Source: Pseudisothecium myosuroides
Taxonomy: Eukaryota > Streptophyta > Bryopsida > Hypnales > Lembophyllaceae
DNA length: 64,000 bases
NCBI GenBank assembly: GCA_951799445.1
Contig: OX637297.1
Coordinates: 14,446,001 to 14,510,000 of the forward strand
Direction: 5' to 3'
Below are positions 3,671 through 55,639 of the stretch, in pieces. Numbering within the stretch: the stretch's first letter is position 1; the number at the start of each line of letters is the position of its first letter. The notes beneath the pieces are model-generated. The model worked only from the letters and a program-made list of their open reading frames with translations, was not told the origin of the DNA and ran no database searches. The translations under genes and the position numbers were made by a program.

Positions 3671-3679
3671 GTGGGGAAT
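3671..3679. repeat. Left target-site duplication of MULE composite 1 (imperfect)
   Basis: GTGGGGAAT here matches GTTGGGAAA at 18126-18134 in 7 of 9 positions. Nine bases is the usual MULE length. The mismatches imply age, or boundaries that are off by a base or two. Confidence 0.45.
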
Positions 3680-4230
3680 GCTGGTATGTGAGTGGTGAGC
3701 GGTGAGCAAGGAGCGATGAGCAGGGATTGGTGAGCGGGAATTTGCAAAATTGACATTTTTTTTTAAAGTGGAAGAAAAAGGATAAAAAAGTGAATGAAAT
3801 TTTATAAAACAATAGATGAAATTTTTGGAAAAGACGATGAAAGGGTTAGAGAAAAATGGATGAAAGTTCATTAAATTTTTTAAAAAGAAGTTGAATTGTG
3901 GGAGAAAATGGATGAAAGTAGATGGATGGAATGGATGAAAGTAGATGGATGGTATGGATAAAAGTAGTTGGATCACTTGGATGAAATGGATGAAAAAGGT
4001 GGATGAGAAAAATGGATGAAATCAAAAAATGAAAAAATTAGATGGAACACTTGGATGAAATCTAATTATAATGTATGACAAAAATGAATGAAAAGGGTTG
4101 GAAAAAATGGGTGGAGGATTAGGAAAGGTAAACAAAAGTAAGGGTTTAGGTATGAGAGCTGGATGCAGGGAACAGGAAAAGCAAGTGAGGAACAGGGATT
4201 TTATTTCTAAAAAATTCAAAATCCTATTAC
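3680..4230. repeat. Left terminal inverted region of composite 1 (GTGAGC and GGATGAAA minisatellites)
   Basis: The outer part (about 3690-3740) is a run of GAGCGGTGAGC-like units; the inner part (about 3775-4130) repeats GGATGAAAGTAGATGG. Both recur in inverse orientation at 17690-18125, where they read as CATCCA/TTTCATCC and GCTCGCCGATCCCCGCTC. Confidence 0.7.
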
Positions 4231-5346
4231 CGTGAAGAAAAGTATCTACAACCATAGATTCAATTTGTTTTAAATAATTTAGATTGATTTTTTTAATCCA
4301 AACTTGACCTGAAGTTGTGGAATTTTAGAAGCTCAAACCTATAGCCATGCCCAGATGTAAGCATTATGATCCTTTAATTTTCAGACATTTGAAGTCTTAT
4401 ACAAGAGCCCAGAGTAAAGATGAAAGAGCAAAGAATTGGGTATTGAAGTTTCATTTATGAAATATAAGAGACCCAATTATTGTGTATTTTTCATTTGAAT
4501 TTAATTATTGGAGTAAAAAATCATGTAAAGTGGTGGGTTTAAAAAATAATGAGGTTAACATATAAAGTGATGGTTTACCATTTTAGTGAAAGTGGGAGGA
4601 GATCTATGATCGTCAATCAAGACTTAGGATGATAAGATTAATTAGTTTAAAATAAAATAAATGAAAAACTATAATTGTACAGTACCACCAAAAAAATGAC
4701 ACCTATAGGAATGGCATGATATTGAAACTATAAAGATTATAGGCATGTGTGAAACATTTACAAACAAATCTAGTCTTGAAAATAGGCATAGAAGACCAAT
4801 ACTCATTCAAAAAAGAAGATGCAATAATTTAATTTGTTTGATCCACTTGCATATATCATTTAAAATTGAGAGCGTGCACAATTTAATGCCTGCATATTAT
4901 AACAAAAATAAAGAATATACCACAAAATTGTAGGGCCATTTAGAGCCACAATAGTCAATCCCACTGGAAAACGAAAACCATTCAAAAATCATCACTAGAA
5001 TTGCAATCACTCAAGGCAGCACCTTCAATCTCAAATTCTTCTCCTTCATCTGCTTCTATATCCAAAAACTCTGTAACCTCCAGATTATATCGACGTTTCC
5101 GTCAATTCAATACAGGAGAGGGGGCTTCAACATATGCCTGAGCAATCCTTTCTGCATAAATTGGGAGATTGAAATTGAAAGGCGGGCTCTGTTCATTTGT
5201 ACCTTGCACTCGTTCTACCATGGTGCTTCTACAAGACAAAAAATAGAGGTTGCAATAAGTAAAATATAATGCAAAAATCATTTACGAAAAATGTAATATA
5301 TTCATATCATAGGTGTTTATGAAAAAATAAGTGAATCACAACTTAC

Positions 5347-5904
5347 GCACAAGAGATGAATCGATTCTTCTTTGGTTTCTTTGTAGGTGTCTGATTAGGT
5401 GGTGGTGTGATGACCCTGTCCTTGCCTTTAGAAGTAGACATTGCAATAGGGGCGAATGGAGAAATTTTGGCCTTAAAGATGAGAGGATCATCTTCTAAGG
5501 CCAAGATGTGTCGCCCAGTCTCCAAACAAGCCTTGATGTATGATTCTGATGGAAAATAAAAGACATATGAATGAATTATGAAGATTCAATTACTTACAAT
5601 AGTGAAAAGAATTTGAAATTGTAGAAAATAAAGAAATATCTGTTGCAGCTTTGCAATCAAGGACAATATCTCCAGGCTTGCAAAATTGTAGAATGAGATC
5701 TCGCATGAAGGGTAAGTTCTTCTCACGTGGCCCTCTCCACGGAACTTCCTTGTTCATAGTAAGGTTTTCGGTGTCCGTCAAATTGAAGACAGCATCATTT
5801 TTTTCTATTGGTTCACCGTCATAAGAAGAGTCGCGGTTCTCTTGGAACGAAAACCGTGAAGGAATGTCCCGCCGAATGAACAATTGAATCCAGAACCTAA
5901 CAGA
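5347..5904 (-). CDS. Methyltransferase SAM-binding exons (motifs I and II) of copy 1
   Basis: Exon 5598-5904 encodes FCKPGDIVLDCKAAT, matching motif I of SAM-dependent methyltransferases (hydrophobic strand, Asp, small-residue loop). The next exon (5347-5545) continues KACLETGRHILALEDD, with a motif II acidic residue at the end of strand 2. Copy 2 reads GDIVLDCSASIG then ACRAIGRHVVALEED. This resembles the C-terminal block of beta-class DNA N6A/N4C methyltransferases (GD-VLDPF-GSGTT ... R-IGVE-D). The expected donor after AAAGCTGCAACAG reads AT, and a GTAAGT lies about 50 bases further on. Use of that site would add residues to the SAM loop. Confidence 0.6.
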
Positions 5905-6051
5905 CTGGAGCATTCAAAAGTTAAAAATTAGAAGAGAAATTGTATTCCCCATATCCATCTTTACAATTCAAGCATATATTAAAATTTAATTCAACCATTC
6001 TCCTAAATCCTTACAAGTAGTAAAGATGTAAATTGCAAATCTTCTATTTAC

Positions 6052-6394
6052 CGTCATTGATGGGTCGCGTGCAGATGCAAGATGAAGCTCATTGATTCCC
6101 CACCAATCTTTGGCCAACTTCATGTCATATTGGTTGGCCAACTCATCAACTTCTTTTAGCAAAGTACGTTCGTCACAATGTATGAGTAGTAGGGCACCAT
6201 TGTCGTGCAAATACATGTACGCCATCTCAAAGAGACTTTCAACGTAGTTTTTTGAGCGTGAGTTCCAGTCTGGAACTAAAGTCGAAATACCTGGAACGAG
6301 GAGATTCTTAGGAATGTCTGCAATAATTAAATCAATCCCCGTATGCTTGTACTTTTTACAGAAGTCGGATGTGACAGTACGATTGCGAGTAGCA
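6052..6394 (-). CDS. Methyltransferase catalytic-region exon (motif IV position) of copy 1
   Basis: The exon encodes GIDLIIADIPKN, then VPDWN, an alpha-helical stretch, DNGALLLIHCDE and KDWWGINELHLA. Copy 2 (48740-49087) gives DLIIVDVLEG, DAGALLVIYPC and EWWGTNRLHLT. The hydrophobic strand ending in Asp sits where beta-class enzymes have (D/N/S)PP(Y/F/W), but the tetrapeptide is DIPK here and DVLE in copy 2. Motif IV before motif I is the beta-class order. Whether the protein can transfer a methyl group is open; binding DNA or SAM without catalysis is possible. Confidence 0.55.
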
Positions 6395-8607
6395 CTAATT
6401 TGTACAGTTCATATATCTCAAGTTAGAATTGAAATCTTCAAAAGCAATCGCATGAAAAGAAAAATGCTAGATTTAGGTTTAGAATACAATATCTTGGCGA
6501 TGATATTATGCAACTTTATCCATCGAGGATCAGGGCTAGTGGGCTCTTGTAAACTATTCAAGAGAGTAGTAATCGAAGTGCACTCTACAAAGACATGAAG
6601 AGAGTGTGGCTCTATCATAGGAGAGCTGACTGAAGGGAACAATAATTGTTTCTTTTTCCGAATTCGGTGAGTAGTGGCGTGAACAACATTTGATAAAGAG
6701 GAGTCTGGAGCAGCGGGTGCAAAGCCGTCATCAGAGCCTTGGTCCGACATAGGTGTTGTTTCATGACTCTCTGAGGGCAAGGCCACAAGCTCATTCTCCG
6801 CTTTTTCTTTCTCCGCCTTCTCTTTTGCCATCTTTTCCGTCTCTTCCTTCTCTTTAGCCGCCTTTTCTATCTCCAATTTCTCTTTCTTTTGTGAGCCTCT
6901 TCTTCTTTGGTGCCTTCTCTTGTGGCTGAATTTCTATGGAATTCCCTTCTTGCGCATCTTCAGGGTCAACAGGAATAAGCTTACCACCGTCAAAAGTTGT
7001 TCTCTCTGCAACCTCTGAGTCCGGAGTGTAGTTTCGATGGCAATCAAGATACCACTCTCCTGCTTCCAAGTGTGGAGGTTTGAATTTCTTCAATTGCTCA
7101 AATGTATACATACAAAGATCAGAGTCTTTCTGTAGCCAATACAGAAAAAATGGTGGTACAACCTCTATCGAGATTGCATTCTTCGGAAGTAGAACTCGCA
7201 TGAAGTACCTGAAGTTGAAGATACAAATGGCATGATTGATGAGCAATCATTTCATGAAACATCTTACAAGAATAACAAATGAAGCATTTTCATCTATTAC
7301 ATATGTAACAATAACGAAGAGGGATCCAAAATTAAAAGACAATAAAAACCTAAATAATTAAAGATGCTAACAATTTGAATAGCATTGTAGTACCTATATA
7401 CAACACGTTTCACTGTACTTTCAGTTCCAGGGAACTCTTTGAATATAGACTTCTTCGTATAGAGTTTTTGATCTTTGTTTCCAAATAAAGAAGTGAATGT
7501 TTTGTCCCACAGAAGGATGCGCCAACTCTCAACATAATTAGAGGGCTTTCGAACTCCTTGAATGGTCCAATCCACAATGATTTTCTCGTCTTTGCAAATG
7601 TTTGCAACCATCTTAACAACTGCCTCCTCCAACTGTTAAAATGAAATAGAGAATGTTAAAAAAACAAAGAATAAAACCATAATAATTATAATTGAAGAGT
7701 TAATTTGTGATGTTAGAACAATACCTCAGCCCAAAAAGATGCCTTGTTGATCCAAGAATCCCAAAAGACGTCCTTATCTTTAGACCCTAGAAAACGATAA
7801 GACTGTCGAACAGTCGACGATGCATTCCACCATCTTAACCACCGTGCTTTGTGTTTTGATTCAATGTTAGCGGTGGCTATCTTTTATAGCTTTTCGATTG
7901 TCATTTCGGGAGTTGGATTTTTGCTGAAGTGGCGATCAATCTAAACACATGATAACATTTATGTTAGAGCAAAACAAATATAATGAAATATTTTGAGATT
8001 ACAATTATAAATGAAGTAAAAATGAATTTATACCTCTTTCAAAAAATCATTTCCATTCTTTGGATTTGCCACCGCAAGATACTTATCAAAATCTTTGGCA
8101 TGAATGGCCTTAACAAACTTGTCCGAGGCATTCTTCATTGCTTCCCAAATGCCTAGAGCAGTCCTTTCTTGGAGTGGTATTCGCATTGTATACTCTTGAG
8201 CTGTTTCATCGGCGGCCACTGCAATCTCCCGCTACAATTGGAAATAAAATATCAAGAGAATTACATAAATCATACAAACTATATGAAAAAAAACAATTAG
8301 AAAGACAATTGTACCTTATATAAGAAGGAGATGAAGACATTGACCATCAAAGAAAACCAACTTGGTCTCATTGCCTTGACCTTCTCACAATATTGGTACT
8401 CTTCAGGGGAAATAAGGTCTTTGAAATCAGCGAGAGGTAGAACTCCAAAATTCCTAACTCGGCGCAATCTGGCTGGAATTGTGCTCTTGACATGATCGTG
8501 CTCAGTAGACCTATACAATGCATTCAAATGGGAATGAAAACAAACTCAATTACAATAAATTCATATTGAAATCATACAAATATATTCAAATCAAGTAGTA
8601 AACGTAC

Positions 8608-9200
8608 CAATTAACGTCATTCATGGCATTTAGCAAGTTTGCCACTTGACCCCTTGGATCCAATATAATGCAGTGGACTCGCCAGTGCCAATGCAATTCT
8701 TCAGGATGACAATTGGTGATATGGCGCATCCATGCCGTCAAACGGTGATTCCCGTCCCAAACATAAAACATTTTACCTCTCAATTGGACAAGGTCATCAT
8801 CTTCCATCAACTCCTTCTCGAATTCCTCATTGACAAGTTGCCAAAGAGGATCCCATTTTGCCATTTCTTCTTTGCTCACGTCCATAGTTTTTTCTAAATT
8901 GTTGTATAAAGAAATGTACAAAACGCGATCACCATCACGGTAGTCAGTCACAAACTCACTCTCCAATTTTTGGACGTCTACTTCGCCGATTGGTCGAATC
9001 TCGTCCATTGCAATCATTCTGCAAAGAGGAATTTGGAGACGAGACTTCGTACTTGGTTGTATACGTAGTGAGTTGATGAGACCTGTGGAGTCGACCTTCA
9101 GCTGTTTGCGGTGGAGTTGCTCACTCTCTACCACGTTCGTTACATGAGGTAGACATTCGCACATGGGTTCATCGTCTTCTTCAAGATCAATTGATACAAC
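8608..9200 (-). CDS. ParB-like (ParB/sulfiredoxin-fold) exon of copy 1
   Basis: The exon has about 197 codons. The key motif is FYVWDGNHRLTAW (near 8735-8770), the DGxHR-type box of ParB/sulfiredoxin-fold domains, preceded by IPLCRMIAMDEIRP, which resembles the strand leading into that fold. Copy 2 aligns as IPLCRLVPVPMVRP and FICDVNHRRLAW, with the Gly lost. In bacteria this fold binds CTP in ParB proper or acts in nucleases, and it is often fused upstream of DNA methylases. The exon ends at a GTACGT donor. Confidence 0.65.
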
Positions 9201-10249
9201 CTTCAAATGCACAATTTACAAACATGAGTATAAAATAATAAAAGATATGACTCCAATATATAAACCAGAAGCGAGTTCACATTAAATGATGTGAACTTGA
9301 TATTGATAAAATCTCAAAGTAAATTGAGACGTGCAATTCGCGCCGAGCGCCGAGGAGTACGACGATAAAACTCCAGTGCCATTTGCCTTGCAACTCGTGA
9401 TCGCAAATGACTAGGGGTAACTGGCAAAACCCTAACAACATCTCTATCATGTGTGGAAGCCACAGATGGCCCCGACGTAGACATGGGTGAGGCCACCATA
9501 CGAAGACGCCTAAATGATGATGTCGGAGTATGCGGAAAAGAGGACCTAGCCTCCCCATATGCTAACGACGTACTCCCTACAACACTAAACAGGCAGTGGC
9601 AGTACGTCGTGTCAACACTTTCGATATCGCTGAGGTCAATCACCTCGTAAGGTGGGTTTGCAGGCACAATCTGCATAGCCTACATCCGCAATGGACATTT
9701 TGAAAATTAGCACAGATATTCAAAATAACGGTAAATAACATTGTACAAGTGGAAAGTAGATGAATTTACAAATGCTTGAAATTGACATGTACCTGAACTA
9801 GTAGTGGTGGCAAATCTCCCGTAAGTACAGGTGGAGATGTTGCAACTGTGTCCATTTCTCCTGTAATAGCCTTGTCGGCATTATCCTCATTCTCGCCATC
9901 TTCTTCAATGACATGGGTAATGTTGACTGTCTCGTCCTCATCCTCGACATATGACGCAATAATGATTGCTTCCTGGTTCTCTTCATCCTCCTCATCCATC
10001 TGATTAATGTACACATTCCGAAATAAAATATAAATAATGTATAAATGGAAAGTCATAAAAAGGCAAAAAATTCTAAATTTTTACAAGTCATGAGTACCTT
10101 CGTGAACGAGGATCCATCAGTTAAAGACAATTGAAACTTTGATTCGTACATCAATGGCAAACTAACTTGAAATAGCATAATCTAAAAAAATATTTTACCT
10201 AAAACCCTAAATCCTAAATCTCAATTTGCATGAAAAGAATAAAACTAGT

Positions 10250-11095
10250 CCCCTAAACCAGACATCCTCGTGAATGAGGAACCCTAAAAAATCAGCACAC
10301 CGGTGGACCCTCATGACCTAAACTAAGGATGCCTAAAAATTCAGCACATTGGTGGCCCCTAAATCTTACATCGTAATAGCCTAAACAAAGTGTTCTCGTG
10401 AACGAGGTCTCTTCCAAAATCAACATACCGTTGGCTCCAAAATCGTACACCATAATAGCCTAAACAAAGTGTCCTCGTCAATGAGGTCTCCTACAAAATC
10501 AGCATACCGTTGGCTCCAAAATCCTACACCGTAATAGTTTAAATAAGGTGTCCTCGTCAACAAGGAAGCCTACAAAATCAGCATACCATTGGCTTCAAAA
10601 TCCTACACCATAATAGTTTAAATAAGGTGTCCACGTCAACGAGGAAGTCTACAAAATCAGCATACCATTGGCTCCAAAATCTTACATCGTGATAGCCTAA
10701 ACAAAGTGTCCTCGTCAACGAGGTCTCCTACAAAATCAGCATATCGATGGCTCTAAAATCCTACACCGTGATAGTTTAAATAAGGTGTCCATGTCAATGA
10801 GGAAGCCTACAAAATCAGCATACCATTGGCTCCAAAATCCTACACCGTAAGAGCCTAAACAAAGTGTCCTCGTCAACGAGGTCTCCTACAAAATTAGCAT
10901 ATCGGTGGCTCTAAAATCCTACACCGTAATAGTTTAAATAAGGTGTCCTCATCAACAAGGTCTCCTACAAAATCAGCATACCGGTGGCTCCAAAATCCTA
11001 CACCGTAAAAGTCTAAACAAAGTGTCCTCGTCAACGAGGTACCCTACAAAATCAGCATACCAGTGGCTCCGAAACCCTAAACCGTAAAAAAAATG
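10250..11095. repeat. 79-bp minisatellite in an intron of the ParB-methyltransferase gene, with CTCG-N4-CGAG palindromes
   Basis: About 10-11 units lie between the exons at 11120-11215 and 10098-10166. Core positions such as 10474, 10553 and 10632 are 79 bases apart. Each unit has a core like CCTCGTCAACGAGG, then CTACAAAATCAGCATACC, TGGCTCCAAAATCCTACACC and a TAGTTTAAATAAGG-like end. The core is a palindrome, CTCG-N4-CGAG. The last bases of the neighbouring weak exon (CCTCGTTCACGAAGG) resemble it, so the array may have grown from that exon edge. A further CTCGCCGACGAG lies near 11258. Confidence 0.85.
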
Positions 11096-11215
11096 GACAT
11101 GAAGGTAATAATTTCTTACCTCAATGTCTGGCTGGATGGCTCCCTCTTCTCCATGCGCCGCATACTCCTCCTCCTCCTCTCCATGCATCGCATATCCCCC
11201 ATCCTCCTCCATGAT

Positions 11216-11928
11216 CTAAAATGAATCAAAACTCCAAAGCCTTGAGTGAAAAGGCTCCTCGCCGACGAGCACTCAAAAGAACCTACCATTGCAAACTACA
11301 GTTTATATAGTAGCTAAAGTGTCTGTTGGACTTTGGGGGAAAAAAAAAAAAAAAAAAAAAAGAGTACAAAATTGGTAGATTTCGGTCAAGGGAATCTCCT
11401 TAATAGCTTTTGTGATTTTGAAGATTTTAAATCCAAAATTTTTTTACGCATAGTTTATAACCTCACAACTCACCTCAAATTTTTTTCAGAATTTTTGAAC
11501 TCACGACCAATTTCCTAAAAATCCTCAAAGTCCTCTAAAAACTCCGTGGGCAAGATTTGGCCTTAACAACTTCCGATTCTATAGATTTCAGGCCAGATTC
11601 CAATATTCTGTTTTGTTTTTTAGTCTCTAAAACATTCAATAAGTGTCCGTTTGAGGCGTGTTATATACCGTTGGAATCGTATTTTCAAGATACACGATCT
11701 AGTCATTTCTATAAAATGAAACTCTACGATAAAAAATTTGATGTAAATTCAACACACTATCTTGTAAATTTTGTGGCCTTCTTCTTACACTTACAACCTT
11801 CTACTCACGTTGATATGCACCGAGCTTGTAAATAATTATGTACTAATTGTATTTCTACTTTCTTGAATTCTCAAAGATGCTTATTAAAAAAATTCATTGC
11901 AAATGACTTCATAATATGATATACTTAC
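11216..11928 (-). other. Probable intron near the 5' end of the copy 1 ParB-methyltransferase gene
   Basis: The stretch runs from a GTAAGT donor (11923-11928) to an acceptor TTTTAG at 11216-11221. It contains a poly-A run (about 11340-11360) and otherwise AT-rich DNA without a convincing exon. Confidence 0.45.
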
Positions 11929-12234
11929 CAAATCTTCTCTACCTTCATTAGCCTCCTCATTCTCATCTTCTTCTGCATCATCTTTGTTGCCCTCCTCTCC
12001 TGCTACCATAGACATTGGTTCTTCAATAACTTTATCTAGGCTCAAGGAACCATCGCCAGCGATGTCGTCCACCTCCAGGCCTCCAAAATCAAGTGCTTTA
12101 GACGTTTCACCATAGCCCTCGTTTCCTCGACTCAAAACTTTGGCAGCCGCTCTCATCTTAGATCTCAACCTTTCCTTCGGAGTGGTGTAATATAGTTTGT
12201 TTCTTCTTTTCTTCTTTGTTTGCCTACTTGCAAC

Positions 12235-13167
12235 CTACAATGGTGGAACCGTAATGAATTCAAGCCTTTGATTTACCACACATACATCTCTAAACAATGA
12301 GCATCTTAATACTTCTCTATTGCCTCCGCACTATTTATTGTTCATCCATTCTACCTTAAGATGATATTTCTAAAGACATTGACTCTACCAAAAAGAAAAC
12401 ATACTTAGCTATTCAAAGTCTTCAACAACAACACATGTCCTATATAATAATCTCTTACAATCTCCCTTCACATAATAGGGAACAACAACCCAATACACTA
12501 ACTAACGTAAAACAAACTCTAATTGCCTAGAAGACATAGACAGTGAGACTATAAGGTCCTCCGGTTCTGATGAAGGTGATAAATAAAAGGCGGTTACAAA
12601 AAGTGTTTGAAATCTCTGACAATCACACAGTTTTCAAGAAAATCAAAATTATGAAATCTAACGGATTTATTGTTATAATTGACACTTTCTGCTTAAATAC
12701 ACCACTACCATTTTACTACAACGTATACATAAAGGTTGATTCGGCGCTCTTTTCATTAGTGTCACCGAATATAAAAATAAATGGGAAGTATTCAAAATGT
12801 TAAACGTTATTCTACATTTCCTTAACATGTTTCGATTCAGTAAAATATCCTTCCTTTCAATTCATTTTCTTAGAGTGCAGTTTTCTTAGAGAGCTATATT
12901 TATTCATTTCATTATTGTTCTACAACGTCTCTCCAGCCTAAAAGCTACAATTAGTTAGGGCAACCACAATGGTGCACAAAGGAGATCAAAGATAATTGCA
13001 TTGTATATGCTGTTCCATGATGTTTGTCTCCATTGCCTTTCATATGCCATATTAGTATAGTTTCTTTGAGTATGCCTCCAAAATGAGTTTACGTAGGTCT
13101 CCATCTCAAGGTAATATCCAACCATTCATAGTTCAAACATTTTTCCACCATATAGGGGTGCCATCTA
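12235..13167. promoter_or_regulatory. Divergent intergenic region between methyltransferase and transposase genes
   Basis: These 0.9 kb separate the first visible methyltransferase exon (minus) from the transposase start (plus). They must hold both promoters and probably the missing first methyltransferase exon. I see no single clear TATA or paired regulatory motif. The matching interval in composite 2 begins at 41604. Confidence 0.35.
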
Positions 13168-16100
13168 ATGGAACAATTCACAGATATGGTGGTCGTGAGA
13201 GAAAACGGTGAGGGTGTACTTGTAATTTTTCCAGTAGGAATAGATGGGCTTGCTTTTGTGTCGGCATTGAGGTTAAGTCTCAGGTTTAAACTTAAGCCTG
13301 ATTCTATTCATTTAGATGAAGACATTTTTGATCCCGACTTTGGGAACCTTACTCACACTGTCGGACAACTACCGTCTTCAGTTGGAGAAAATACAATGTG
13401 GACCCTCAAGGCTGGAAGGTATAGGGCTTACGGAGTCGCTAATATAGTTGAATCCAACTCCAGGGGCGCGGGAATTGTCCCTTGGTCGTCTTCAGCTTCC
13501 TTTCAAACTCCACTTCTGAACCATGTCAAAGTTGAACCTCAATCGCACTTTGTCACCGTCCTCAGTTCAGATTCAGAAACGAACTTTCCTGAACCAAGCT
13601 TCAATTTGGAAACTCCTTCTTCGAACGCAGTTTTGGCTACCAATCCTTCATTTATATCAGTAGTGACCCCTAATCCAGGTGTCTCTAGTGGGTCAGGTTC
13701 ATCTATAATTGATTGCTTGAGAGGATTGCGTAATTTGAAAGGATGTAGGAATGTCTTGTCCAAACTAGACTATGATAGTATACAAATTAAAAAAGTGACA
13801 GTGTTACCTCCATCTTTCAATGGCGATGTCATATACGAATTGCCTGCAGCTGATACTAGTGGTACCTCATTCCAAGCAAAACAAATGGCCGGCATGGATA
13901 AGCGGTACGATGGCCATGTTTGGTCAAAGACAGTGATCACAAATATAGCCAATCGAATGGGTTTGTCTTTTCGAAAATCTAATTGCTTGGGGCACCTTCG
14001 ATGTGTGAATTCTAAGTGCGAGTTTATGAATCGTATTTATCAAATGAAGGAAGTCAATGAGTTAGAATGGGAAGGGCTTTCACCAACAACACTTGATGTT
14101 GGACAACCGCATCCACTAGGTTCGACGTTGGTATGCAAGATTTGCAAAGAGCCTCCGGCATGTATTGCGCGGTGTACTGTGCAAGTGTATTATGTGGCAG
14201 GAAATTACACGCTGACTAGGGCGTTTGTTCATCTCGGGAGTCATGCACATCCGGTAAAGGACGGAGAACTTAGAGACATGCAAGAGAGAACCCGAACTCT
14301 AATTGGAGAGCAATTGGAACAAACGCCTTCAGCGACAAATTCCTCAATTGTCATGGAGGCTACAAAGGAACTTCTAGGAGGCTTACTTTTGTGTCCGGAC
14401 GGAGAGCAGCCAAAGGCCATGGACTTTGACAATCTCATGCCGGTCTTAGAAAAATGCAAGTACTTGAGCTCTCCAAGAATACGGAACGAGGTAACTTCCT
14501 TCAAGTACTTGAGAAAATTTGGAGTGATTGATAGTATAACCAGATTGAGAGGATCCAGCACATGGGCATTTGTACAAGAAAGTAAATTTCCTGGTCAAAG
14601 GACGGATGTAGATAAGGTATTTGTTTTTAAAATGTCCGAAATAGGTCCAGGAAGTGGAGTTGATTTGGTGAAGCGTATGCAAACGAGTGGAGATCTTCAA
14701 GAAGCTTGGCTGATGTTTGATCACGTGAAGCGTGTTAAAGACTAGACAACCATGGCATGTCACGTCTATGACTCAGCTTATTGTTGTGTTATGACAATTG
14801 CATGTTGCGACATGCAATCCAAGGATTGCGCAGCACAAATTCTTTTTTATAAGAACTTGAATTCAGTTCTAAAACGACATGGTGTAGCAGAGACTCAATT
14901 CAAGGGCTTCATGGTGGATAGTGCTCAAGCCAATTGGAATGCTATGAGGATCGTGTATGGTTCAGGGAACATTGCTGAACCTATGCCCAATCGAGAAAGA
15001 ACTTGCCTTTTCCATTGGACTCATTCCATGGAGAAACACACAAAGACAGACATTCGAGGTGACTTGCAAGATCAATATCATTTGTTATGCAAGCAGTATA
15101 AGAACGCCTCATCGACTGCACAGTCCGAAGAGCGTTACCTAGCCATCAGAGCATGGTGGTTGTCATCAAGTGCCACTACGGAGGAAGGGTTGCGCCGCTT
15201 GGAGCTGTGGCTTTCATTTTGGCATTTTCGATATCGACAATGGGGAGGGTTCAATCAACTTGTAAGTTTTTTGCCTCATTTACAATCATTTGTAATCATG
15301 TCAGACTCTTTATTGGTGAACTGAATTGACCTTTTCCTTCTCAAGCATCAACACAAAAGTTTTATAATTTGTTTGGCACTGGCATACAATGTTGTCAATA
15401 TTGGACATTGTCTCATGGTTAGGGCACCTACCAAGGCCCTTTTTGAAACTGAGAGGTACTTCCCCCATTGTTAGGGTGTGCAACATTTTTTCTTTTTTCC
15501 TTTTAACACGTGCCGTATTGCAACACTGAATATACTCACTTAAATGACAGTCTTTCTTTTTTATGACTTTGTAGTATGGAGTAGCTTGGAGCCTACAAAG
15601 ATGTAACATAGGTGTTGTATTTCTGTGATTGCAGGATCTTACTGAGTCTGAGAAAGCTGAAATTCCATCGTGCAACCTAGCGGAGACAGTTCACAATAAG
15701 TGGCTTCAACAATCTGGAAATCGTAGAAACGACTTATATGTAGCTACTGTCGATGATTTTGTAAGAGCGTTTATGCAAATGGTAAAGTATTACCAATATC
15801 TAAAAGGAAATCAAGCAGGGACCGGGCCGGGGAAGGAAGAGCTCCTGCTACGAGTTGCACAACGTTCGGCACAAAGAACTGGAAATCCAAAGTCTCTCAC
15901 TGTAGCTATTTCAAATATTCCGGGAGTTGAAGAATTTATCAATAGGGAACCCCATTTGGAAGGTCAAGAAGTGTTTGGATCGCAGAAGAGGAAGGCTGAC
16001 ATGCCTCTTGGCTGCGAATTTGATTCACATAGGCCTGATAAGGTGAATTTCTCTCATCCATGTATCCAAACAAGGGCCTCCCAAGCGTCAACAAGCGCAG

Positions 16101-17104
16101 ATGAACTCAATCCAATTTTAGAAGAGGTTGCTGCACCTGAGTATATGGAAGTCCATGATTCAATGTCAATTGACAAGAATCTTAGACAGCCTGATCCTCG
16201 TGAGTGGACTCATGTGTCAGCAATCCAAGAGAGTGTGTGTGATGAGGCGCAATGGCACATTACCCGATTGGCAAAAACATCAGCGAAAGCATGTTTTGCA
16301 CTTCAAGCAATTACAAAGAAGAAGTGCACAGCCAAAATCATCCAAAACAACATTGCGACAGCTGCGCCGACATATACAGGTATAATGGTGAATTACAGGA
16401 AGAATTCACATGAGCGCATGCAGTTTTACTTCTGCAATGATGACATTGAACGTTGTGTAAAGGGAACACGGCGCAAGTGGGTATTATCTGTGCCACCTGT
16501 GCCCACCATTTGGCCGATTCAAATAAGCACAAAACTTTCAAAGGCCGAAATCTTAGCTCTTGAGTCTGCCGGTTTTATGCTTCCACAACGGCAAGTTATT
16601 TCACCTCGACGACTCTTCGGCGGAGAAGAAGGCATAGAACTTGTTTGTGCCTATCCTATTCCATCGTCACCAGATGAGCATCCCAAGATTCGAGCAGGTA
16701 AAGTTGTTCGCAGGAACCCCAAAGCACCAACAACAAAGCAACAGAACAATTGCGCTTCGGCACTCATTTTGAATGCCCGCATTCAAAGGGTTACAATGGT
16801 TCCACATCCGGGATTTGGTTGCATTGTTTCTTTGAATTCAGGGATAGAACCTCGAAATGAAAATTACATGCTAACAATTTCGTCTTTCCCAGAGTACACC
16901 TGTCCAAATTTCAAAGAGATGAAGTTGAGTTGTTTGGGTAAGCGTGGAAGCTGGGCGAACTGTAAACATCTTTATTACATCTTCACTGTAATTTGTAATC
17001 TACAGTGCACAATAGATGTCTTCATCCATGCTGCTAGTTTCAGCTTCAATGAAGTGAAGCAAGTTTTGCTTAGTGGGATCCTAAATCATTTGGGATCTAG
17101 TTAG
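13168..17104 (+). pseudogene. MULE transposase, copy 1 (one nonsense codon)
   Basis: Two exons (13168-15261 and 15635-17104) flank a 373-bp GTAAGT...TTGCAG intron in phase 0, encoding about 1190 codons. In order: an N-terminal domain (GIDGLAFVSALRLSL), a Ser/Pro-rich linker, a Cys/His DNA-binding-like region (DKRYDGHVW, CLGHLRCVNSKC, CKICKEPPAC), and a MULE-type DDE core. The core has Asp518 in LMFDHVKRVK, Asp584 in GFMVDSAQANW, the C/DxxH-like CLFHWTHS, and Glu in IPSCNLAETVHNKW. The C-terminus is a SWIM-like zinc finger (YTCPNF...NCKHLYYIF). Codon 526 is amber (14743-14745) where copy 2 has Trp. Everything else is open, so inactivation looks recent or the stop is read through. The first SWIM Cys reads Tyr here; copy 2 has the CxC pair. 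The start was chosen as the first ATG before the N-terminal domain shared with copy 2. Confidence 0.8.
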
Positions 17105-17689
17105 GTTTTCTTTTCAGCTGGAGATGATTTTTCCTTGTTTTTACAGGTCTATTATGTACTTATGAATGAAGATGTAGTGAGACTAAAAGGGCCACTACTT
17201 GCATTACATTAAATTCACCTGATTAAAAACTACAAGACAATGGTGTCCCTTGTATTGAATGCATGATGGTCTGAATTTGAAGTGTCTGAACCATGTAGAC
17301 TTTTCTCTGGGCTGTTTAAATTGTGCCTTTATTTTACTTGCACCCATAGACATGACAGAATCCCATTACTGTTTGCAATCTAGATTCATTAGGACCATGA
17401 GTGAATATACTAACAAGCTCCTAAACTACTATGTCACCCTTCCAAGGTAAAAAGAACAATTCAGTCCTACTATCCCATATCAACCACGGTAATAGGTATA
17501 GGACCCTAAACCCGTGACATGGAAGCAACATCCCTAATTTACATTTGAAACGGTCATAGGACTCCCAAGTTGTAATTTTAGTTGCAAGCCAAAATTCTAT
17601 GAATTTGCTTGATGATTTTTAATGGGATTGTCATTCATTTTCCTATCGTCAAATGCAAAGTCATAGTTGAAAACAATATCGTTCATTTT
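17105..17689. other. 3' flank of the transposase gene
   Basis: Between the transposase stop and the right terminal repeats I see no gene. It probably holds the 3' UTR and polyadenylation region. Confidence 0.35.
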
Positions 17690-18125
17690 TTTCCTAAATC
17701 TTAAGCCAATATTTTCTCTACTATCACTAAAATTCTTACTTTTGGTTCATCCAAATTTTTAATGAAGTTCATCCAACATTTCCATCTACTTTCATCCACC
17801 ACTTTTTCTACTGTCATCCATTTTTTTCATTCAATTTTTCTTCTACTTTCATCCAATCCTTCTATTTCCATCCAATTTCTCCATCTCCTTCCATGTACAT
17901 CCTTTAGACCCTTCCATCCTAATTTTCAGCAAATCCTTTCCATATTTGGACCATCAACTTTCATCCTATATTCAAAATGATTCTACCCAAATTTAGGTTG
18001 AATTTCCTCTATTTTTATTTTTTTTTAATTCACATTTCTCTTTTTCGTCCAAGATGTACGCTCCCCACTCACCATTTTCTGCTCCCCGCTCGCCGATCCC
18101 CGCTCCCTGCTCGCATACTAGTAAC
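17690..18125. repeat. Right terminal inverted region of composite 1
   Basis: This is the inverse of 3680-4230: CTTTCATCCA-type units (17745-17980), then CTCCCCGCTCGCCGATCC units (about 18060-18115), ending GCATACTAGTAAC. The outer end resembles the GTGAGC-rich ends of composite 2. Confidence 0.65.
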
Positions 18126-18134
18126 GTTGGGAAA
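18126..18134. repeat. Right target-site duplication of composite 1 (imperfect)
   Basis: GTTGGGAAA, against GTGGGGAAT at 3671-3679. The retroelement leader resumes directly after it. Confidence 0.45.
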
Positions 18135-18164
18135 CCAGTTGTGTGGATTTTTTGGAAAGGACAG

Positions 18165-20538: not shown

Positions 20539-21382
20539 GTCCTCCTTTTTCCGGGGTCGTCTGTCCCACCCTCGAGTTCAGATCGGTCGACTTCCTCCTC
20601 TTCTCCCGTTAGTCGACCAGGTCCTGCTGCTGCTATTCTTCTTCATCGTCTTCGTCATCTTCTTCCTCCTCTTCCTCCTCGATTGGAGTATCCGGCGGAA
20701 TTTCGTGCGTGAGACCATACTTTAGGATTTCCAGTCCGGTGTTGTATATCAACACCTCCTCGCTAGTGAGGACCTCTTGCTGATGATACAGGTGGAACAA
20801 GTACGGACTGAGAAGGCTAGGCTTCCCCTTCCCTACGTGATCCACTAGTTTCTTCACTATGCCCGCTATAACCTTCCCCCAGTGGACTACTTTATCTTCT
20901 AATGCCTCGAAGAGAGTGTTGGCCACAGTAATTGTAACTTGGGTGGGCTTTTCCGGATACAGGATCGGAATTAAAAATTCCAACATCCGTTTCTGCCTAG
21001 CATCTTTACAGTCACTCACGGGGTATCCGTCCTTAGTGGTAACCGGATTACGGAACTTCCCAATTCCGTACTTTTCTACCCGAGAACCTAGTCCGGATCC
21101 GTTCTTCTCGAACTCGTACACATCAACCCATACATCTGCTGTCCATGCTTCGAGTTGGCCTCTCACGGTCAACTGAAACTGATTCGGGCCCCCGGAGACG
21201 AGTTGCTCCAGCATCTCCGGGTCCTTAACATTCCATGGGCGGCGGATCAAACCTACGCATCCCATCCAGGTCAGATCTATCTCTAATTCCTTCCGAAAAG
21301 TTGGGTCGGTGGGAATGACCGGCCTAACTATCCGAGCCATGACTGAGGTCCGACGCGCTACCGGGTTGCTAGACTCCGCCAT
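20534..21382 (-). pseudogene. N-terminal half of the split gene; unknown protein
   Basis: From the ATG at 21382 the minus frame runs 249 codons to an amber at 20633-20635. It continues in the same frame through one ochre to the insertion junction, where it joins the frame of 315-1369. The protein starts MAESSNPVARR and has a folded-looking region (LTWMGCVGLIRRPW, FRNPVTTKDGYPVSDCK, RMLEFLIPILYPEKPTQ). It then enters a long Glu/Asp run (IEEEEEEEDDEDDEEE) followed by QQQ. The amber directly precedes three CAG codons and the ochre follows GTCGAC, consistent with CAG to TAG and CAA to TAA. The family is not recognised; it resembles retrotransposon-associated proteins of non-flowering plants only in general character. 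Confidence 0.6.
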
Positions 21383-25869: not shown

Positions 25870-26730
25870 AAATTCTCACTTTAGCATATAGCTCTTCAGA
25901 TTGAAATTTTTTGCATCTCGGAATGGTTTACACCTCCAGGGACTTATGCAATTCCTCAACCTTCAGTTACTGCAACTTTGGAAAATTTGGAAGCTGCTGG
26001 CGCCATGGTCGATCCAGATATTGATGACGATGGAGAAGATTAAGCCGGCAAGTATGCAATGGTTGTCGTTTGCTAGCTAGTATATCATGTGTGTTGGCCA
26101 GCAGCCAATATATTATGTGTGTCGTCTACCGGCCGATACCTTAGTTGACTATGTCTCAGTACCAACTATTACCAGACAAGTAGTGTCATACCAAAGAAGC
26201 ACGAAGTAGTTGTCCGCTGGCAACAATACTAGATTTCTTTGTCGATGGACTAGTTATTGGCCAGCGGCCGATATGCCGACGACCTTTAGGGGCTTTGAAG
26301 GCTTCGGGTTTAGGATTTAGAGTTTTAGGATTTTAGAGTTAGGATTTAGGGTTCAGTAAGTTCCGCCGTCGGATGCCATCCAATACTTTGATCTTCAGAA
26401 CTTTATGTACTAGGGCAATGATAGTGGCTCTGGCTTGTACATTTCACTTATGAAAATAAATAATCGATTGTATTATTTTCAGCCACGAAATTCTATGTTT
26501 GCAGTTGTGTTGGCGAGCTATCACAACTAGTGTATTATGCAATTGGATGTGAAATTATTGCTTGCCAGGTCACTTTCTGAAATGTTTGGACTGATTCCAA
26601 TATCAATCTGCTAAATATGTTGGCTGGCCGTCGATACTTTACACTTGTTTTGTTGTTTTTTGGTTGTCGGAGGGGACATAAACTACCTGGTTCTGTTCAT
26701 AATTGGTCTCAAAGTCTATAATTAGTTAAA
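25870..26730. other. No gene identified
   Basis: Non-coding AT-rich sequence. A short degenerate TTTAGGG-like patch occurs at 26307-26355 but is too irregular to call telomeric. Confidence 0.35.
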
Positions 26731-29700
26731 TTGAAGTAGTTCTTTGAATCGTAGGACCGGGGGGACGTTTTTTAGCTTACATGGTATGTTTTGGAAAAAG
26801 TAACATGGACTTTTTTTACTCATGACTCTTCACTTCATGAGCAGAGTATTTACAATTTGTACATATTTTTTTTCATATTGACTTGTACTAATTTCTAAAT
26901 GATTTATGGAATGAAAGTTCTTTGAACAGTAGGACCAATAAGGCCTTTTTTAAGGTTACGTGGTAAGTTCTGGAAAAACTAACATGGACTATTTTTGCTC
27001 ATGACTCTTCACTTTATGAGCGGAGTACTTATAGCTTGTGCATTTTTTTTTCATACGAGCATGTACTATTTTACAAATGAACTATGGAATGAGAGTTGTT
27101 TGAACCGTAGGACCAGGGGGACCTTTTTTAGGTTACGTGGTAAGTTTTGGAAAAAGTAACATGGACTTTCTTTACTCATGATTCTTCACTTCATGAACGG
27201 AGTATTTACAACTTGGATTTTTTTATTTTCATACCAACTTGTACTATTTTCTAAATGATTTATGGAATGAGAGTTCTTTGAACTGAAGGACCAAGGGACG
27301 TTTTTTAGGTTATTCGGTAAGTTTTGGAAAAAATAACATGCATTTTTTCCACTCATGGCTCTTCACTTCTTGAGCGGAGTATTTACAACTTGTACATTTT
27401 TTTTCTTCATACTGACATGTACTATTTTATGTATGATTTATGGAATGAGAGTTCTTTGAATTGCAAAACTGGAGGACGTTTTTTAGGTTACGTGGTAAGT
27501 TTTGTAAAACGTAACTTGGAGTTTTTCTGCTCATGAGTCTTCACTTCATGGGCAAAGTAATGACACTTTGTATATTATTTTTTTTCATACCGACTTATAC
27601 TATTTTATGTATGATTTATGAAATGAAAGTTGTTTGAACAGCAGGACTAGGGAGCCTTTTTAAGGTTACATGCTAAGCTTTGGAAAAAGTAACACGGACT
27701 TTTTCCACTCATGACTCTTCACTTCATGAGCGGAGTATTTACAACTTGTACATTTTTTTTCCATACCAACATGTCCTATTTTATGTTTGATTTATGGAAT
27801 GAGAGTTGCTTGAAACGCAAGACCAGGGAGCCTTTTTCAAGTTACGTGGTAAGTTTTGGAAAAAGTAACCTTGATTTTTTTCCCTCATGACTCTTCACCT
27901 TACAAGTGGAGTACTTGCAGCTTGTACATATTTTTTTCCATATGGACTTATACTATTTAATGTATGCTTTATGGAATGAGAGTTCTTTGAACCGCAGGAC
28001 CGGGGGGACCTTTTTTAGGTTACGTGGTAAGTATTGGAAAAAGTAATTTGGACTTCTTTTGCTTATGACTCTTCACCTCATGAGCGGAGTATTCATAATT
28101 TGTATATTTTTGTAGGGTTACCGACATGTACTATTTAATGTATGATTTATTGAATGAGAGTTGTTTAAGCCACAAGACCGAGGAGCCTTTTTTAGGTTGT
28201 GTGGTAAGTTTTGGAAAAAGTTACATGGACTTTTTTTACTCATGACTCTTTACTTCATGAGCGGAGTATTTACAACTCGCACATTTTTTTTTTCATACTG
28301 ACTTGTACTAATTTCTAAATGATTTATGGAATGAGAGTTCTTTGAAGTGCAAGACCGATGAGGCCATTTTTAAGGTTACGTGGCAAGTTTTGAAAAAGGT
28401 AACATGGACTTCTTTTGCTGATGACTCTTCACTACGTGAACGGTGTATTTACAACTTGTACATTTTTTTTTTCATACGGGGATGTACTGTTTTATGAATG
28501 ATTTATGGAATGAGAGTTGTTTGAACCACAGGACGACATGACCAGGGGGACCTTTTTTAGGTTACATACTAAATTTTGGAAAAAGTAAAACAAACTTATT
28601 CTGCTCATGAGTCTTCACTTCATGAGCAAAGTATTCACAACTTGGATTTTTTTAATTTTCATACCAACACGTACTATTTTATGTATGATTTATGGAATGA
28701 GATTTGTTTGAACTGCAAGACTGGGGAGCCTTTTCTAGGTTACGTGGTAAGTTTTGGAAAAAGTAACTTGGATTTTTTTTGCTCATGACTCTTTACTTCA
28801 TGAGCGGAGTATTTACAATTTGTACATTTTTTTTCATACCGACTTGTACTATTTTATGAATGATTTACGGAATGAGAGTTCTTTGAACCATAGGCTTGGA
28901 GGGACGTTTTTTAGGTTACGTGGTAAGTTTTGGAAAATGTGACATGCACATTTTTTGCTCATGACTCCTCACCGCACGAGCATAGCACTTACAGCTTGTA
29001 CATTTTTTTTTCATACCAACATGTACTATTTTATGTTTGATTTATGGAATGAGAGTTCTTTGAACTGCAGAACCGGGGATGTTTTTTAGGTTACGTGGTA
29101 AGTTTTGGAAAAAGTAACTTGGACTTTTTCCGCTCATGAGTCTTTACTTCATGAGCGGAGTATTTACAACTTGTACATTTTATTTTCCATACCGACATGT
29201 CCTATTTTATGTTTGATTTATGGAATGAGAGTTGCTTGAAACGCAAGAGCGGGGAGCCTTTTTTAAGTTGCGTGGTAAGTTTTGGAAAAAGGAACCTTGA
29301 TTTTTTTTACTCATGACTCTTCACCTTACGAGCAAAGTACTTACAGCTTGAACATTTTTATTTTCATACTGACTTGTACTATTCTCTGAATGATTTATGG
29401 AATGAAAGTTCTTTGACCGCAGGACCGAGGGACCTTTTTTAGGTTACGTGGTAAGTTTTGGAAAAGGTAACATGGACTTTTTTTGCTCATTACTCTTCAC
29501 TTCATGAGCAGAGTATTTACAACTTGTACATTTTTTTTAATACCGACATGTACTATTTAATGTATGATTTATGGAATGAGAGTTGTTTGAGTTGCAAGAC
29601 CGAAGAGCCTTTTTCAGGTTACATGGTAAGTTTTGGAAAAAGTAACATGGAGTTGTTTTTTCTCATGACTCTTCACTTTATGAGCGGAGTATTCACAACT

Positions 29701-29890
29701 TATATTTTTTTATTTTCATACCGACTTGTATTATTTTATGTATGACTTATGGAATGAGAATACTTTGAACCGCAAGACAGGAGGGACCTTTTTTAGATAT
29801 GTGGTAAGTTTTGGAAAATGTAACAAAGACTTTTTTTGCTCATGACTCTCCATTTTTACAACTTGTACATTTTTTTTTCTTACCAACATG
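26730..29890. repeat. Satellite B, tandem array with a unit of about 177 bp (about 18 units)
   Basis: The repeat carries AGGTTACGTGGTAAGTTTTG, GGAAAAAGTAACATGGAC, GCTCATGACTCTTCAC, TTCATGAGCGGAGTATTTAC and GGAATGAGAGTTCTTTGAA. GGTTACGTGGTAAG-type anchors recur at about 27131, 27308, 27486, 27664, 27840 and 28018. The unit is 59 codons long, so chance ORFs repeat across it; these are not genes. It abuts satellite A near 29890. Confidence 0.9.
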
Positions 29891-30707
29891 TACTTTTTTA
29901 CGTAAAAATATCCAAAACATTTTATAAACATGGACACTAAAATACAGGGCCTCTGTTTGTTTCCAATTTCTTTTAATTCCCATAGAGATGGATTTGAAAT
30001 AGGTATAAGTTGCATATTTTATTGGATTCTAAATCCTTTGAATATTAAAAACTTGCTTGTTTTATTTTAAATCATTTATGTATGAATATCCATGGCCACT
30101 TAAATAGAGGACCTCCGTTTATTCCCATATTTGTTTAATTCATATGCAGATGGATTTGAAATGAGTATAAGTTGCGTATTTTTATGGATTCTAAGTCCTA
30201 AGAATAATTATAACTTGCTCAATTTTTTTAAAATCATTTGTGTACAAATATCCAAAACATTTGACATACATGGACATTTAATTACAAGGCCTCCATTCAT
30301 TCCCAATTTTGTTTAATTCACGTGGAGATGGATTTGAAATGGATATAAGTTGCAATTTCTTTTTGGATTCTTAATCCTAAAAATATTTTCATTTTGCTCA
30401 ATTTAAAAAATTTAAAAATTAACGTACAAATATCTATGACATTTGATATTCATGGCCACTTAAATCGAGGGCATCCGTTCATTCTTAATTTTGTTTAATT
30501 CTCCAGAGATGGATTTGAAATGGGTATAAGTTGCATATTTTTTTGGATTCTAAGTCCTACGAATATTTACAACTTGCTCAATTTTTTTTGAACCATTTAT
30601 GTATGATTATCCATGAAATTTGATATACATGGAGACTTAAATACAAGGCCTCCTTTCATTCCCAACTTTGTTTATTTCACATGGAGATGGATTAGAAATG
30701 GATTTAA
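29890..30707. repeat. Satellite A, left segment (unit about 180 bp)
   Basis: The units contain GGAGATGGATTTGAAATGGG, TATAAGTTGCATATTTTTTT, GGATTCTAAATCCTAAGAAT, CATTTACGTACAAATATCC, TGACATTTGATATTCATGG and GGCCTCCGTTCATTCCC. The segment is cut at 30707 by a Harbinger element and resumes at 33339. Confidence 0.9.
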
Positions 30708-35040: not shown

Positions 35041-38035
35041 TTAGGCAGTATTTTTCACCATCCCAGCCATTTCCAGTAGTCTCATCACTTCATCCATACT
35101 GAAGCTTGGTGCGTGAATGAAATTATCCTTCTGCTGGTCCAACTTGCACAAGTATCGAAAAATGTAGTATAGATGTTTTCAATTGATATATTTCCCTCGC
35201 TTTCCAATAGATGCAAACACCATACCAGTGAAATACAAACAAGAACAAGTTGGAAAATTGAAGATAGTGACTCAATACACCATGTGATGAGGTTCAACTC
35301 CAGATTGTAGAATGATGACAGCTCCAAGTCCTCGGTATGGCAAAATGTTCATTGCATCTCCAAGAATATTCCTGGTAACATTCCGGGTGCTCTCCCAATG
35401 GTTCCGGTGATCCTCAGTTGGCGCCTTTTTATTTTGGCAAATGTTTTTTCCATTGCGGATGCATGGAGGCTTGTTAGCGTGAGGAGGTCTTGTGTAAATC
35501 TACTCTACAACTTCAAATAGTTTTGAGGAAGTGAAGAGCCGTCGCGGCAACAAGGAAGGTTGTTCTTGCAAGTGGAAGCTTATTTCCTCAAAGAGAATAA
35601 TCTCGTTAGAAGAGAGGGCTGTACCAATCAGCACTAGCCAGACATCAGGGATTCTTGGTTGACTAAGAGTATGAGACCTTCTCGGACCCATCACGCAACG
35701 TTTGATATCATCCGAACAGAACCAAAATTTCTTCAGTCTCCACTCTTAAACCTTTGAACTCACATTTCTGACCCTTATACGTGAGAGCAGCGGTGGGTTT
35801 AGAGCCCTTAGCTATTGTCATCTTGCACTTCACCTCCGTTTGAGACTAAATAGTATGACACTTCCTCTTTGACTTCACAGAGATGCAGGCTATGTGCCAC
35901 TCAAAAGGGTCACAATCCGTCTCCAAAACATGCTTTGCATGAGGAAAGCTTGAAGTAAATTCCTCCACACCACCAACTACAACATCGGTTGACCTCAATT
36001 GCACTCTAGGATGAGAAAAATTCACCTTTATCAGGCAATGAAAATCACCTTTGGATCCAATAGGTATATCTAGTTTCCGTTTTGTTGACCCAAACACTTC
36101 CTCTCCTTTCAAATGAAGAATGCGTGTACATACTTCCTCGGCACTGCGTATACTGCACAAGGCGTCCATAATTCTCTTTCCATCCATGGATGCTACTGCT
36201 CTCTTGAGCTTCAAATCATGTCGCAAGGGGCCAAATTCAGAGGGCCACCATTGAGGTACACCCTGTAATTGATCATTTGCATGAACGTTCATATCCAATC
36301 ATCACATGTCGCAATGTATAAATCCGTACCACGTTTCCCTGATGCCTGCAGCCATTTGTTGTGAACTATTTCAGAGAGATTGCAAGATGGAATATCTGCC
36401 AACTCTTCAATTGACAGATCCTGCACAAGTGAAAAAGACGTATTAGGTACATTTCAAAGCTCATAGTGAAACTCCAAATACCATAGCGTAGAAGAGAATG
36501 GAAGGAAGAATAAAGGGCTTACAATTTCCATGAAGCCACTCCATTGACGGTATCTAAAATGTCAAAATGCTAACCACAACTCCAACTCCCTCAAAGATTC
36601 TTCCGTTGCTGCAGCAGAGGAGTACCACTAGGCCTTGATTTGGAGGTACTTGCTCTCAACCTCGTCTAGATTCTTTGAGTCTTTGTAGTCTTTGTAGAGC
36701 TTGATATGTTAGTTCTAAAACTCTTGCTTAATAAGTCTCTCTGTGTGTTGCTTCATTGAGGTGGCCCAGTGGAAGAGGCAGGTGTATTCTTGGTCCACCA
36801 TCTTCACAAAAGGATTGTCGGAGCCGTAAACAATTCAAACTGCATTCCAATTGACTTGAGTACTATCTGCCATAAAGCCTTTGAAATTGGGATTTGGTAA
36901 GCCATTCCTCTCTAAAACTCTATTGAGACATCTCCACATAATCACTTGTCCATCAGTGTCTTCTAACAGCATATTGCAAACAGTAATAGTCATGACCTTA
37001 CAATAACTAGAATCATATACATGACATGCAATTGTAGTCCAACCCTTGACCCGCTTAACATGGTCAAACATGAGCCAACAATTAGCCAAATCTCCCCTCA
37101 ATTGCATCCGCCGTACAAGATCAACTCTGTTCCCGGGGCCGTCGACAAGCATCTTGAACAAATACACTTTTTCTTGTCCTTGACTAGGAAACACACTATC
37201 GTGAAAGAACTTGATTTTGGCTTGCTTCTTCATTGCTAGTAGCCAATTGATCTCCCCTCCTCCAACTCCAGTGCTACGGAACGACGCAATTATATTTCTA
37301 ACATTCGGTGAACTCAGGATTTGGAACTTGTCCATAACATCCTCAAGTTCCTTCCTCTCAACATTTCTTTAGGTCCGTCATCCGCATGAACCAAAAATGT
37401 GTCTAAGAATTCTTTGCTGACAGCAAGAGCTATCACAGAGGCTTTAGTTGTAGGTGTTTTCTCTACTTCTTTTGCAATTAGTCCTGATATAGTATCCATG
37501 GAATCCCTACACTCAGAGGCCATCAGCAAAAGGGTGGTTATGAGTGCCTAAATGAATGCAAGCCCTCGTCATATCCGTTGAATCTACAACATAGTAAATT
37601 TTGTCGTCGCAAAAATTGATGCAGATTGGTGGTAATTTACAAACTTTGCATACAGGTGTCAAATCTTTTGGAGGAATCGACCCTACGTGGAATGGAATGC
37701 CAGTGTTACCGGACCACTCTGTTTTGTTTCGCTTTGAGCAACAATTCAAGTAATCACAAGCCTCATTCATGCAGGTCAAGTGCCTAACACAAGAAGACTT
37801 TCTAAACTTGAGACCAAAATTGTTGTGAATGTTCGATGTTATAGTACAACACCATGTATGACCATCATAGCGTTTGTCCATGCTAGTCATGTTCTGTGAA
37901 GAACTAGAGGACGGTAATGACCGGTAAGGTGGCAACTCTAAAACAATGTCACTGTCAAAACTGGTTGGCAGAAACTGAACCTTTTTGTGAGTAATAGACT
38001 CAAAATCCAGAGTTGCAAGCTCGTTCCTACACCCT
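35041..38035 (-). pseudogene. MULE transposase, copy 2 (main part, heavily decayed)
   Basis: Collinear with copy 1 from GCRNELATLDFESI at 38034, next to the inserted retroelement, to the stop at 35041-35043. Recognisable parts: DKRYDGHTW and CVRHLTCMNEAC zinc-type region, Asp in WLMFDHVKRVKGW, Asp in GFMADSTQVNW, CLFHWATS, an intron GTAAGC...TGTGCAG near 36425-36520, Glu in IPSCNLSEIVHNKW, and a SWIM-like end with TCSC and WKHLYYIF. The CxC pair missing in copy 1 is present here, while the CxH Cys became Trp. Several stops fall where copy 1 has Trp (KA*WYSS, LAF*HFRYRQW), and there are frameshifts. It is non-functional. Confidence 0.75.
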
Positions 38036-55635: not shown

Positions 55636-55639
55636 TGAA

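Follow-up and report, generated by a model that had tools for sequence, protein, structure and literature searches.

The stretch of DNA analysed here (the window) comprises 64,000 nucleotides of the moss Pseudisothecium myosuroides (contig OX637297.1; C11:14446001–14510000), and copies of its contents were sought across the 388-Mb genome (222 contigs). Positions 3673–18129 of the window constitute one 14.5-kb (14,457 bp) DNA transposon holding two divergent genes, a transposase gene on the forward strand and a gene for a ParB–methylase-like protein on the reverse strand. The ends were set by comparing window-like copies. The right end falls at base 18129 in six of eight such copies (exactly so in five, while BLAST places the sixth 2 bp later), the right-side alignments of these six being 95.8–98.1% alike; of the other two, L044 has no match on this side and L046 is rearranged. 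Two more distant copies likewise end at 18129 or 18131. The left end lies at 3673 in the same six copies (BLAST places a single one 1 bp earlier), with alignments 84.8–94.7% alike. Perfect target-site duplications flank five of the six (10 bp in four, 9 bp in one; the sixth has none), and a decayed duplication can be read by eye around the window copy, where 3663–3672 matches 18130–18139 at 8 of 10 positions. A first-pass annotation, made from the sequence alone, had drawn the element at 3680–18125 between inverted terminal regions. The element is real, with its exact ends displaced to the positions given by the other copies, and its terminal regions (3673–3738 on the + strand and, by copy comparison, 18070–18129 on the − strand) read as imperfect inverted repeats: the inverted right end of three relatives matches 3679–3738 at 77% over 60 bp, and the outermost bases differ. 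The space separating the conserved portions of both genes holds, in the window copy, a tandem array of a 79-bp unit (10332–11087, 9.6 copies).

The family is real and abundant, and an identity of 97.3–99.6% between copies over 4.4 kb shows that it moved recently. In the window copy, neither gene is intact. A near twin of the window element (L046, C11:14.646 Mb) lies 186 kb away. Its transposase exon is identical over 172 amino acids, its ParB exon contains a stop and shows 95% identity, and the stretch homologous to 17590–17938 is inverted.

The transposase gene consists of two exons on the + strand (13168–15261 and 15635–17104) separated by an intron at 15262–15634. Exon 1 encodes a zinc-finger-like region and candidate catalytic residues (D, D, CxxH, E), picked by eye, which are conserved in the transposase alignment and which we take to be the DDE triad; exon 2 encodes a SWIM-like C-terminus. 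A single in-frame stop at 14743–14745 interrupts exon 1 of the window copy, and copies open through both exons occur elsewhere in the genome. The DDE and SWIM motifs had been described as visible in the window copy. The candidate residues are present there, and the SWIM pattern CxCxnCxH is found in 10 of 20 relatives fetched, but its first cysteine is missing from the window copy. Assignment of the enzyme to the Mutator-like elements (MULEs) likewise stands in part. The target-site duplications of 9–10 bp fall within the MULE range of 8–11 bp (PMC6446971) and the candidate residue pattern is MULE-like, but none of 11 transposases matches the MULE transposase profile PF10551 at expectation values (E) up to 10. 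Comparing profiles with eight ordinary MULE matches from this genome likewise gave a negative result, though with little power (effective number of sequences 1.3–1.8). Because both profile results are negative, the transposase is termed MULE-like in anatomy only, on the basis of its duplications and residue pattern, and is not a proven member of the superfamily.

The ParB–methylase gene runs on the − strand from 9200 to about 4985 and was reconstructed as spliced, multi-exon models. It begins with an exon for a ParB fold carrying a GxxR box, here GNHR (8608–9200), recognised by AlphaFold and matches to PDB structures. This is followed by linker exons at 8315–8510 (spliced model, with a homologous piece in composite 2, a second gene pair in the window), 8034–8231 (model), 7725–7940 (model, with an in-frame stop) and 7394–7632 (model and comparison with composite 2), and by a linker and lysine/glutamate-rich region at 6488–7208 with an apparent frameshift near 6880 (model and comparison). 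The methylase-like part, modelled and aligned between copies, comprises a core exon with the motif IV region, in which DPPY is replaced (6052–6394), an exon with PWRG[PA]REK and motif I (5640–5904) and an exon with motif II, ALExD (5347–5545); one or more C-terminal tail exons (4985–5228) are predicted by the model only. The methylase motifs are referred to by their customary names (I, II, IV, X). The splice donor of exon 5640–5904 is lost in the window copy and intact in another copy (L059), which, together with the in-frame stop and the apparent frameshift, makes up the damage to the gene in the window. Searching with the ParB–methylase protein as a single sequence returned no matches, and profiles were required to detect homologues; in Pfam, no convincing match was obtained for any of ten individual exons or reading frames.

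First-look candidates across the genome numbered 560 for the transposase exon, 404 for the ParB exon and 288 for the methylase core, of which the best 150 each were scored. For 78 of the best 150 transposases, a ParB exon is listed no more than 20 kb away, at a median transposase–ParB distance of 5.8 kb, and in 77 of these 78 it lies upstream on the opposite strand. Random placement yielded 0.6 divergent pairs on average and never more than 3 in 200 trials, which rules out chance adjacency, previously argued from the repetition of the pair within the window. The 72 remaining transposases cannot be called unpaired, because pairing used only the best 150 of 560 and 404 candidates; indeed, with the core list added, a divergent partner exon, either ParB or core, lies within 25 kb of 93 of the best 150 transposases. 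That most copies of the two genes occur apart is not borne out: among window-like sequences 23 of 24 transposases are paired with a ParB exon and 23 of 28 ParB exons are paired, the other five being without a listed transposase. Nor do the data bear out a single-copy host gene captured twice by chance, both genes being present in many copies. The genome holds many further copies of the pair, and six of eight window-like copies share both ends with the window element; the divergent orientation persists even where ParB is only 37% identical to that of the window. The best 150 methylase cores include 108 for which a ParB exon is listed at up to 20 kb, the core following ParB on the same strand in 106, and 81 with a listed transposase within 25 kb, 79 of which face away from it. 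From this same-strand order and shared orientation away from the transposase, ParB and methylase core form one accessory gene.

A ParB subfamily with near-equal scores and 195-amino-acid frames (e.g. G000:C5:30894717-30895247, C7:10778617-10779147 and C3:11036205-11036735) has no partner among the transposases listed (best 150 of 560). Its members may have a transposase partner that is more diverged, or they may be non-autonomous.

Structure prediction supports a ParB fold for the N-terminal part of the accessory protein, in agreement with the first-pass annotation. The AlphaFold model of the ParB exon reached a predicted local distance difference test (pLDDT) score of 91 from a 68-sequence alignment, a result that depends on depth (35.5 with 3 sequences), and in a Foldseek search with this model PDB ranks 1–37 were all members of the ParB/Srx superfamily (best E 0.022). 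The third match in BFVD is a phage protein named DNA methylase. The GxxR pattern (Box II) is found in 68 of 76 database homologues, and of the eight that lack it, four have the methylase part (PWRG) in its stead. Sequence profiles alone gave no convincing Pfam family for this domain, and a ParB-like match to phrog_1033 was weak (E 0.025, 2 of 11 members).

As judged from sequence profiles, the second domain is homologous to N6/N4 DNA methylases (PF01555-like). PF01555 was listed for all ten spliced domains at E up to 10 (best 2.8e-8), and the one match shown exceeds the curated cut-off. The domain profile finds CcrM at 1e-6, the motif order IV…X–I fits, and searches with individual members recover DNA methylase families of NCBIfam, PHROGs and PADLOC. 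With its introns, ParB fold, PF01555 homology and recurrent transposase partner, the accessory gene is therefore, as had been proposed, a spliced gene of ParB–methylase-like type carried as stable cargo.

The catalytic motif of N6/N4 methylases is DPPY. CcrM DPPYNL aligns opposite an element motif that reads D[ILMV][PLK][EDSK][GN]L or DCQENL in the local copies, mostly D[IV]PE[NG]L. The pattern (D/N/S)PP(Y/F/W) occurs in none of the 16 local copies (14 loci and two in the window), several of which are close relatives of one another. A set of 192 database proteins, to which the last search contributed the best 120 of 195 matches, yielded 156 aligned sequences, and in none of the 96 rows covering the motif without gaps was DPPY found; position 4 is never aromatic (Glu in 89 rows, Lys in 5 and Asp in 2). 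The sole phage relative found retains DPPY. Motif I has G-x-G in 37 of 47 database rows (four of the 47 look misaligned), the motif II acid is invariant in ten aligned domains of this genome and is Glu in 24 of 26 database rows, and the motif IV Asp is invariant in the same ten domains. The first glycine of motif I is gone from nine of these ten. Since DPPY is replaced in all 16 local copies and 96 database rows, self-marking by N4-methylcytosine (4mC) or N6-methyladenine (6mA) is doubtful, and the suggestion that the element modifies or marks its own DNA is not supported. On these motifs, ordinary N6/N4 methylation is probably not the role of the accessory protein, which probably manages element DNA in some other way; a clamp binding S-adenosylmethionine (SAM) and DNA, perhaps with an anti-silencing function, fits better. 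METTL14 provides an example of an inactive methylase partner. Inactive AMT6/7 partners are also described (PMC12695648).

Trees and distances of the two proteins point to the co-evolution that had been put forward as a check. For 17 elements in which both exons were read, pairwise distances of transposase and ParB are correlated (Mantel r 0.65, p 0.0001), and the shallow clades of the two trees agree. A group of three loci (C2:20.1, C1:36.3 and C2:35.3 Mb) falls with the window type in the transposase tree and with composite 2 in the ParB tree, so that modules were probably exchanged at least once. Identity to the window is also correlated between the two proteins (rho 0.65 over 77 pairs), but this correlation is gone outside the window subfamily (rho -0.008, 54 pairs), and full distance matrices were preferred for this reason. 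The ratio of nonsynonymous to synonymous substitution rates (dN/dS) is below 1 in all usable comparisons of both genes. It is 0.20, 0.48, 0.11 and 0.29 for ParB, and 0.51, 0.41, 0.32, 0.53, 0.28 and 0.13 for the methylase core, the last with saturated dS; ten ParB or core rows gave no ratio due to saturated synonymous sites. For the transposase, six of nine rows were used (rows involving L011 and L032 were left out), with values of 0.04, 0.08 and 0.10 between subfamilies and of 0.54–0.72, with little power, in three rows among young copies.

Taken together, these data lead us to favour, with modest confidence, a cut-and-paste transposon equipped with a dedicated, non-methylating ParB-clamp accessory protein that would act in anti-silencing or in assembly of the transposition complex. 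The ParB module would load onto element DNA as a nucleotide-switched clamp, perhaps at the 79-bp array or at the ends. The methylase-like domain, which retains features of a putative SAM pocket (the glycines of motif I in the majority of relatives and the acid of motif II), would serve as a SAM- or DNA-binding grip without ordinary N6/N4 methylation. By analogy with VANC of VANDAL elements, a sequence-specific anti-silencing factor, the accessory protein may keep its own element open to transcription and transposition; alternatively, it may help to assemble the transposition complex. It is tempting to speculate further that a ParB clamp was joined to a former methylase in which DPPY gave way to D-x-P-E, conserved across land plants, yielding either a SAM-sensing anti-silencing shield or a SAM enzyme with new target chemistry, a proposal that we put forward tentatively, as somewhat short of an even chance.

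Alternatively, the accessory protein may be a mudrB-like helper, necessary for excision, integration or targeting and not for countering silencing, which the tight linkage and the matching subfamilies of both genes would favour. Several MULEs have additional open reading frames, and mudrB is apparently needed for integration (PMC6446971). Nothing specific speaks against such a helper; the one deep exchange between transposase and ParB lineages suggests that a close match is unnecessary; we regard this role as unlikely. An active methylase that attaches to the element and places 6mA or 4mC on element DNA, as suggested in the first-pass annotation and by the authors of the Ectocarpus study discussed below, would be in keeping with the PF01555 homology, motif I G-x-G (37/47), motif II Glu (24/26), the invariant motif IV Asp and dN/dS below 1. 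None of the 16 local copies and none of the 96 database rows has the aromatic residue of DPPY, however, Glu taking its place in 89 of the 96, and the one phage relative found retains the motif, which makes activity of this kind slightly less probable still. Passive carriage of a captured host gene, in the manner of Pack-MULEs, can draw on the frequent capture of host fragments by plant MULEs (PMC6446971) and on the five window-like ParB exons without a listed transposase alongside, but it is rejected as very improbable in view of the copy number, the orientation conserved to 37% ParB identity and dN/dS below 1 between subfamilies. Chance neighbours or an assembly artefact, suggested by duplicated-looking loci with equal scores (C6:0.43/0.48 Mb and C6:29.21/29.26 Mb), can practically be dismissed given five insertions each with its own target duplication and a random expectation of 0.6 pairs.

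Transposons with ParB–methylase genes are already known. Sola1-1_Ec32 of Ectocarpus is one such DNA transposon, and green and red algal cases are cited with it (PMC12477816). By its description, it resembles the present element in an accessory gene on the opposite strand with ParB-like and N4/N6 DNA methyltransferase domains, and differs in having a Sola1 transposase, a length of 21.5 kb and a brown algal host; the passage concerned predicts an active methylase and contains no active-site analysis (PMC12477816). Phage ParB–N6_N4 methylase fusions have the same two domains, but are prokaryotic, whereas the element gene has a multi-exon linker, introns and no DPPY (PMC12704722). The main text of the same survey of ParB-CTPases, which includes eukaryotes, reports such fusions in phages and contains neither "transpos" nor "plant" (PMC12704722). 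VANDAL elements with VANC share with the moss element a plant host, an accessory DNA-binding gene, degenerate ends and noncoding tandem repeats, but the passages on VANC mention neither a ParB nor a methylase domain, and anti-silencing would be shared only by proposal (PMC10398659). MuDR and other plant MULEs are similar in their 8–11 bp duplications, SWIM finger and extra, often antisense, open reading frame, and differ in that the transposase of the moss element does not match PF10551; "methyl" does not occur in the main text of this 2019 MULE survey (PMC6446971). Fungal DNA transposons with TET/JBP genes also carry cargo acting on DNA modification, which is a dioxygenase as opposed to a ParB–methylase (PMC12730594). 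The literature covered, which leaves out most subscription papers and preprints, yielded no land-plant or MULE-like version and no report of a lost DPPY. What is new is thus the MULE-like land-plant version with a substituted catalytic motif.

Homologues were found in another moss, Ceratodon purpureus (KC19_N032100, methylase part, with a precomputed PF01555 match and a gene model that splices at motif I as in the element model), and in the fern Adiantum nelumboides (ParB part), suggesting that the phenomenon is general rather than local. DNA methylation is contested between plants and transposons, and this accessory gene, kept under selection in many copies although the methylase signature is lacking, makes it possible to ask whether dead methylases are put to new use by selfish DNA, as clamps or readers. 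Young copies with open frames, which reach 99.6% identity, make the question testable. Two contigs assigned to a cyanobacterial metagenome-assembled genome (L105, L106) encode a relative reading DVPEDL, with an intron-like break at the same place as in the element gene, and are probably eukaryotic contamination.

Composite 2 repeats the same gene pair, as had been noted, with both genes decayed. Its fragmented transposase (35044–38052, − strand) is recognised by comparison with that of the window element, to which its pieces are 30–71% identical (45% over 180 and 55% over 67 amino acids), and its fragmented ParB–methylase gene (46041–50126, + strand) is 39–41% identical in ParB and 39% in the core. 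A 249-amino-acid reading frame to which no family was assigned (20633–21382) lies between the two composites. One copy of a repeat pair (1951–2546 and 38617–39214, 36.7 kb apart, 71–77% alike) is located between the composite 2 genes. A MITE-like (miniature inverted-repeat transposable element) 98-bp inverted repeat at 43964–44166, 92% complementary with a 7-bp loop, is found within an array of ~138-bp repeats. Two arrays of a ~178-bp satellite with copies at least 60% alike (26700–29900 and 50400–55770) are possibly pericentromeric.

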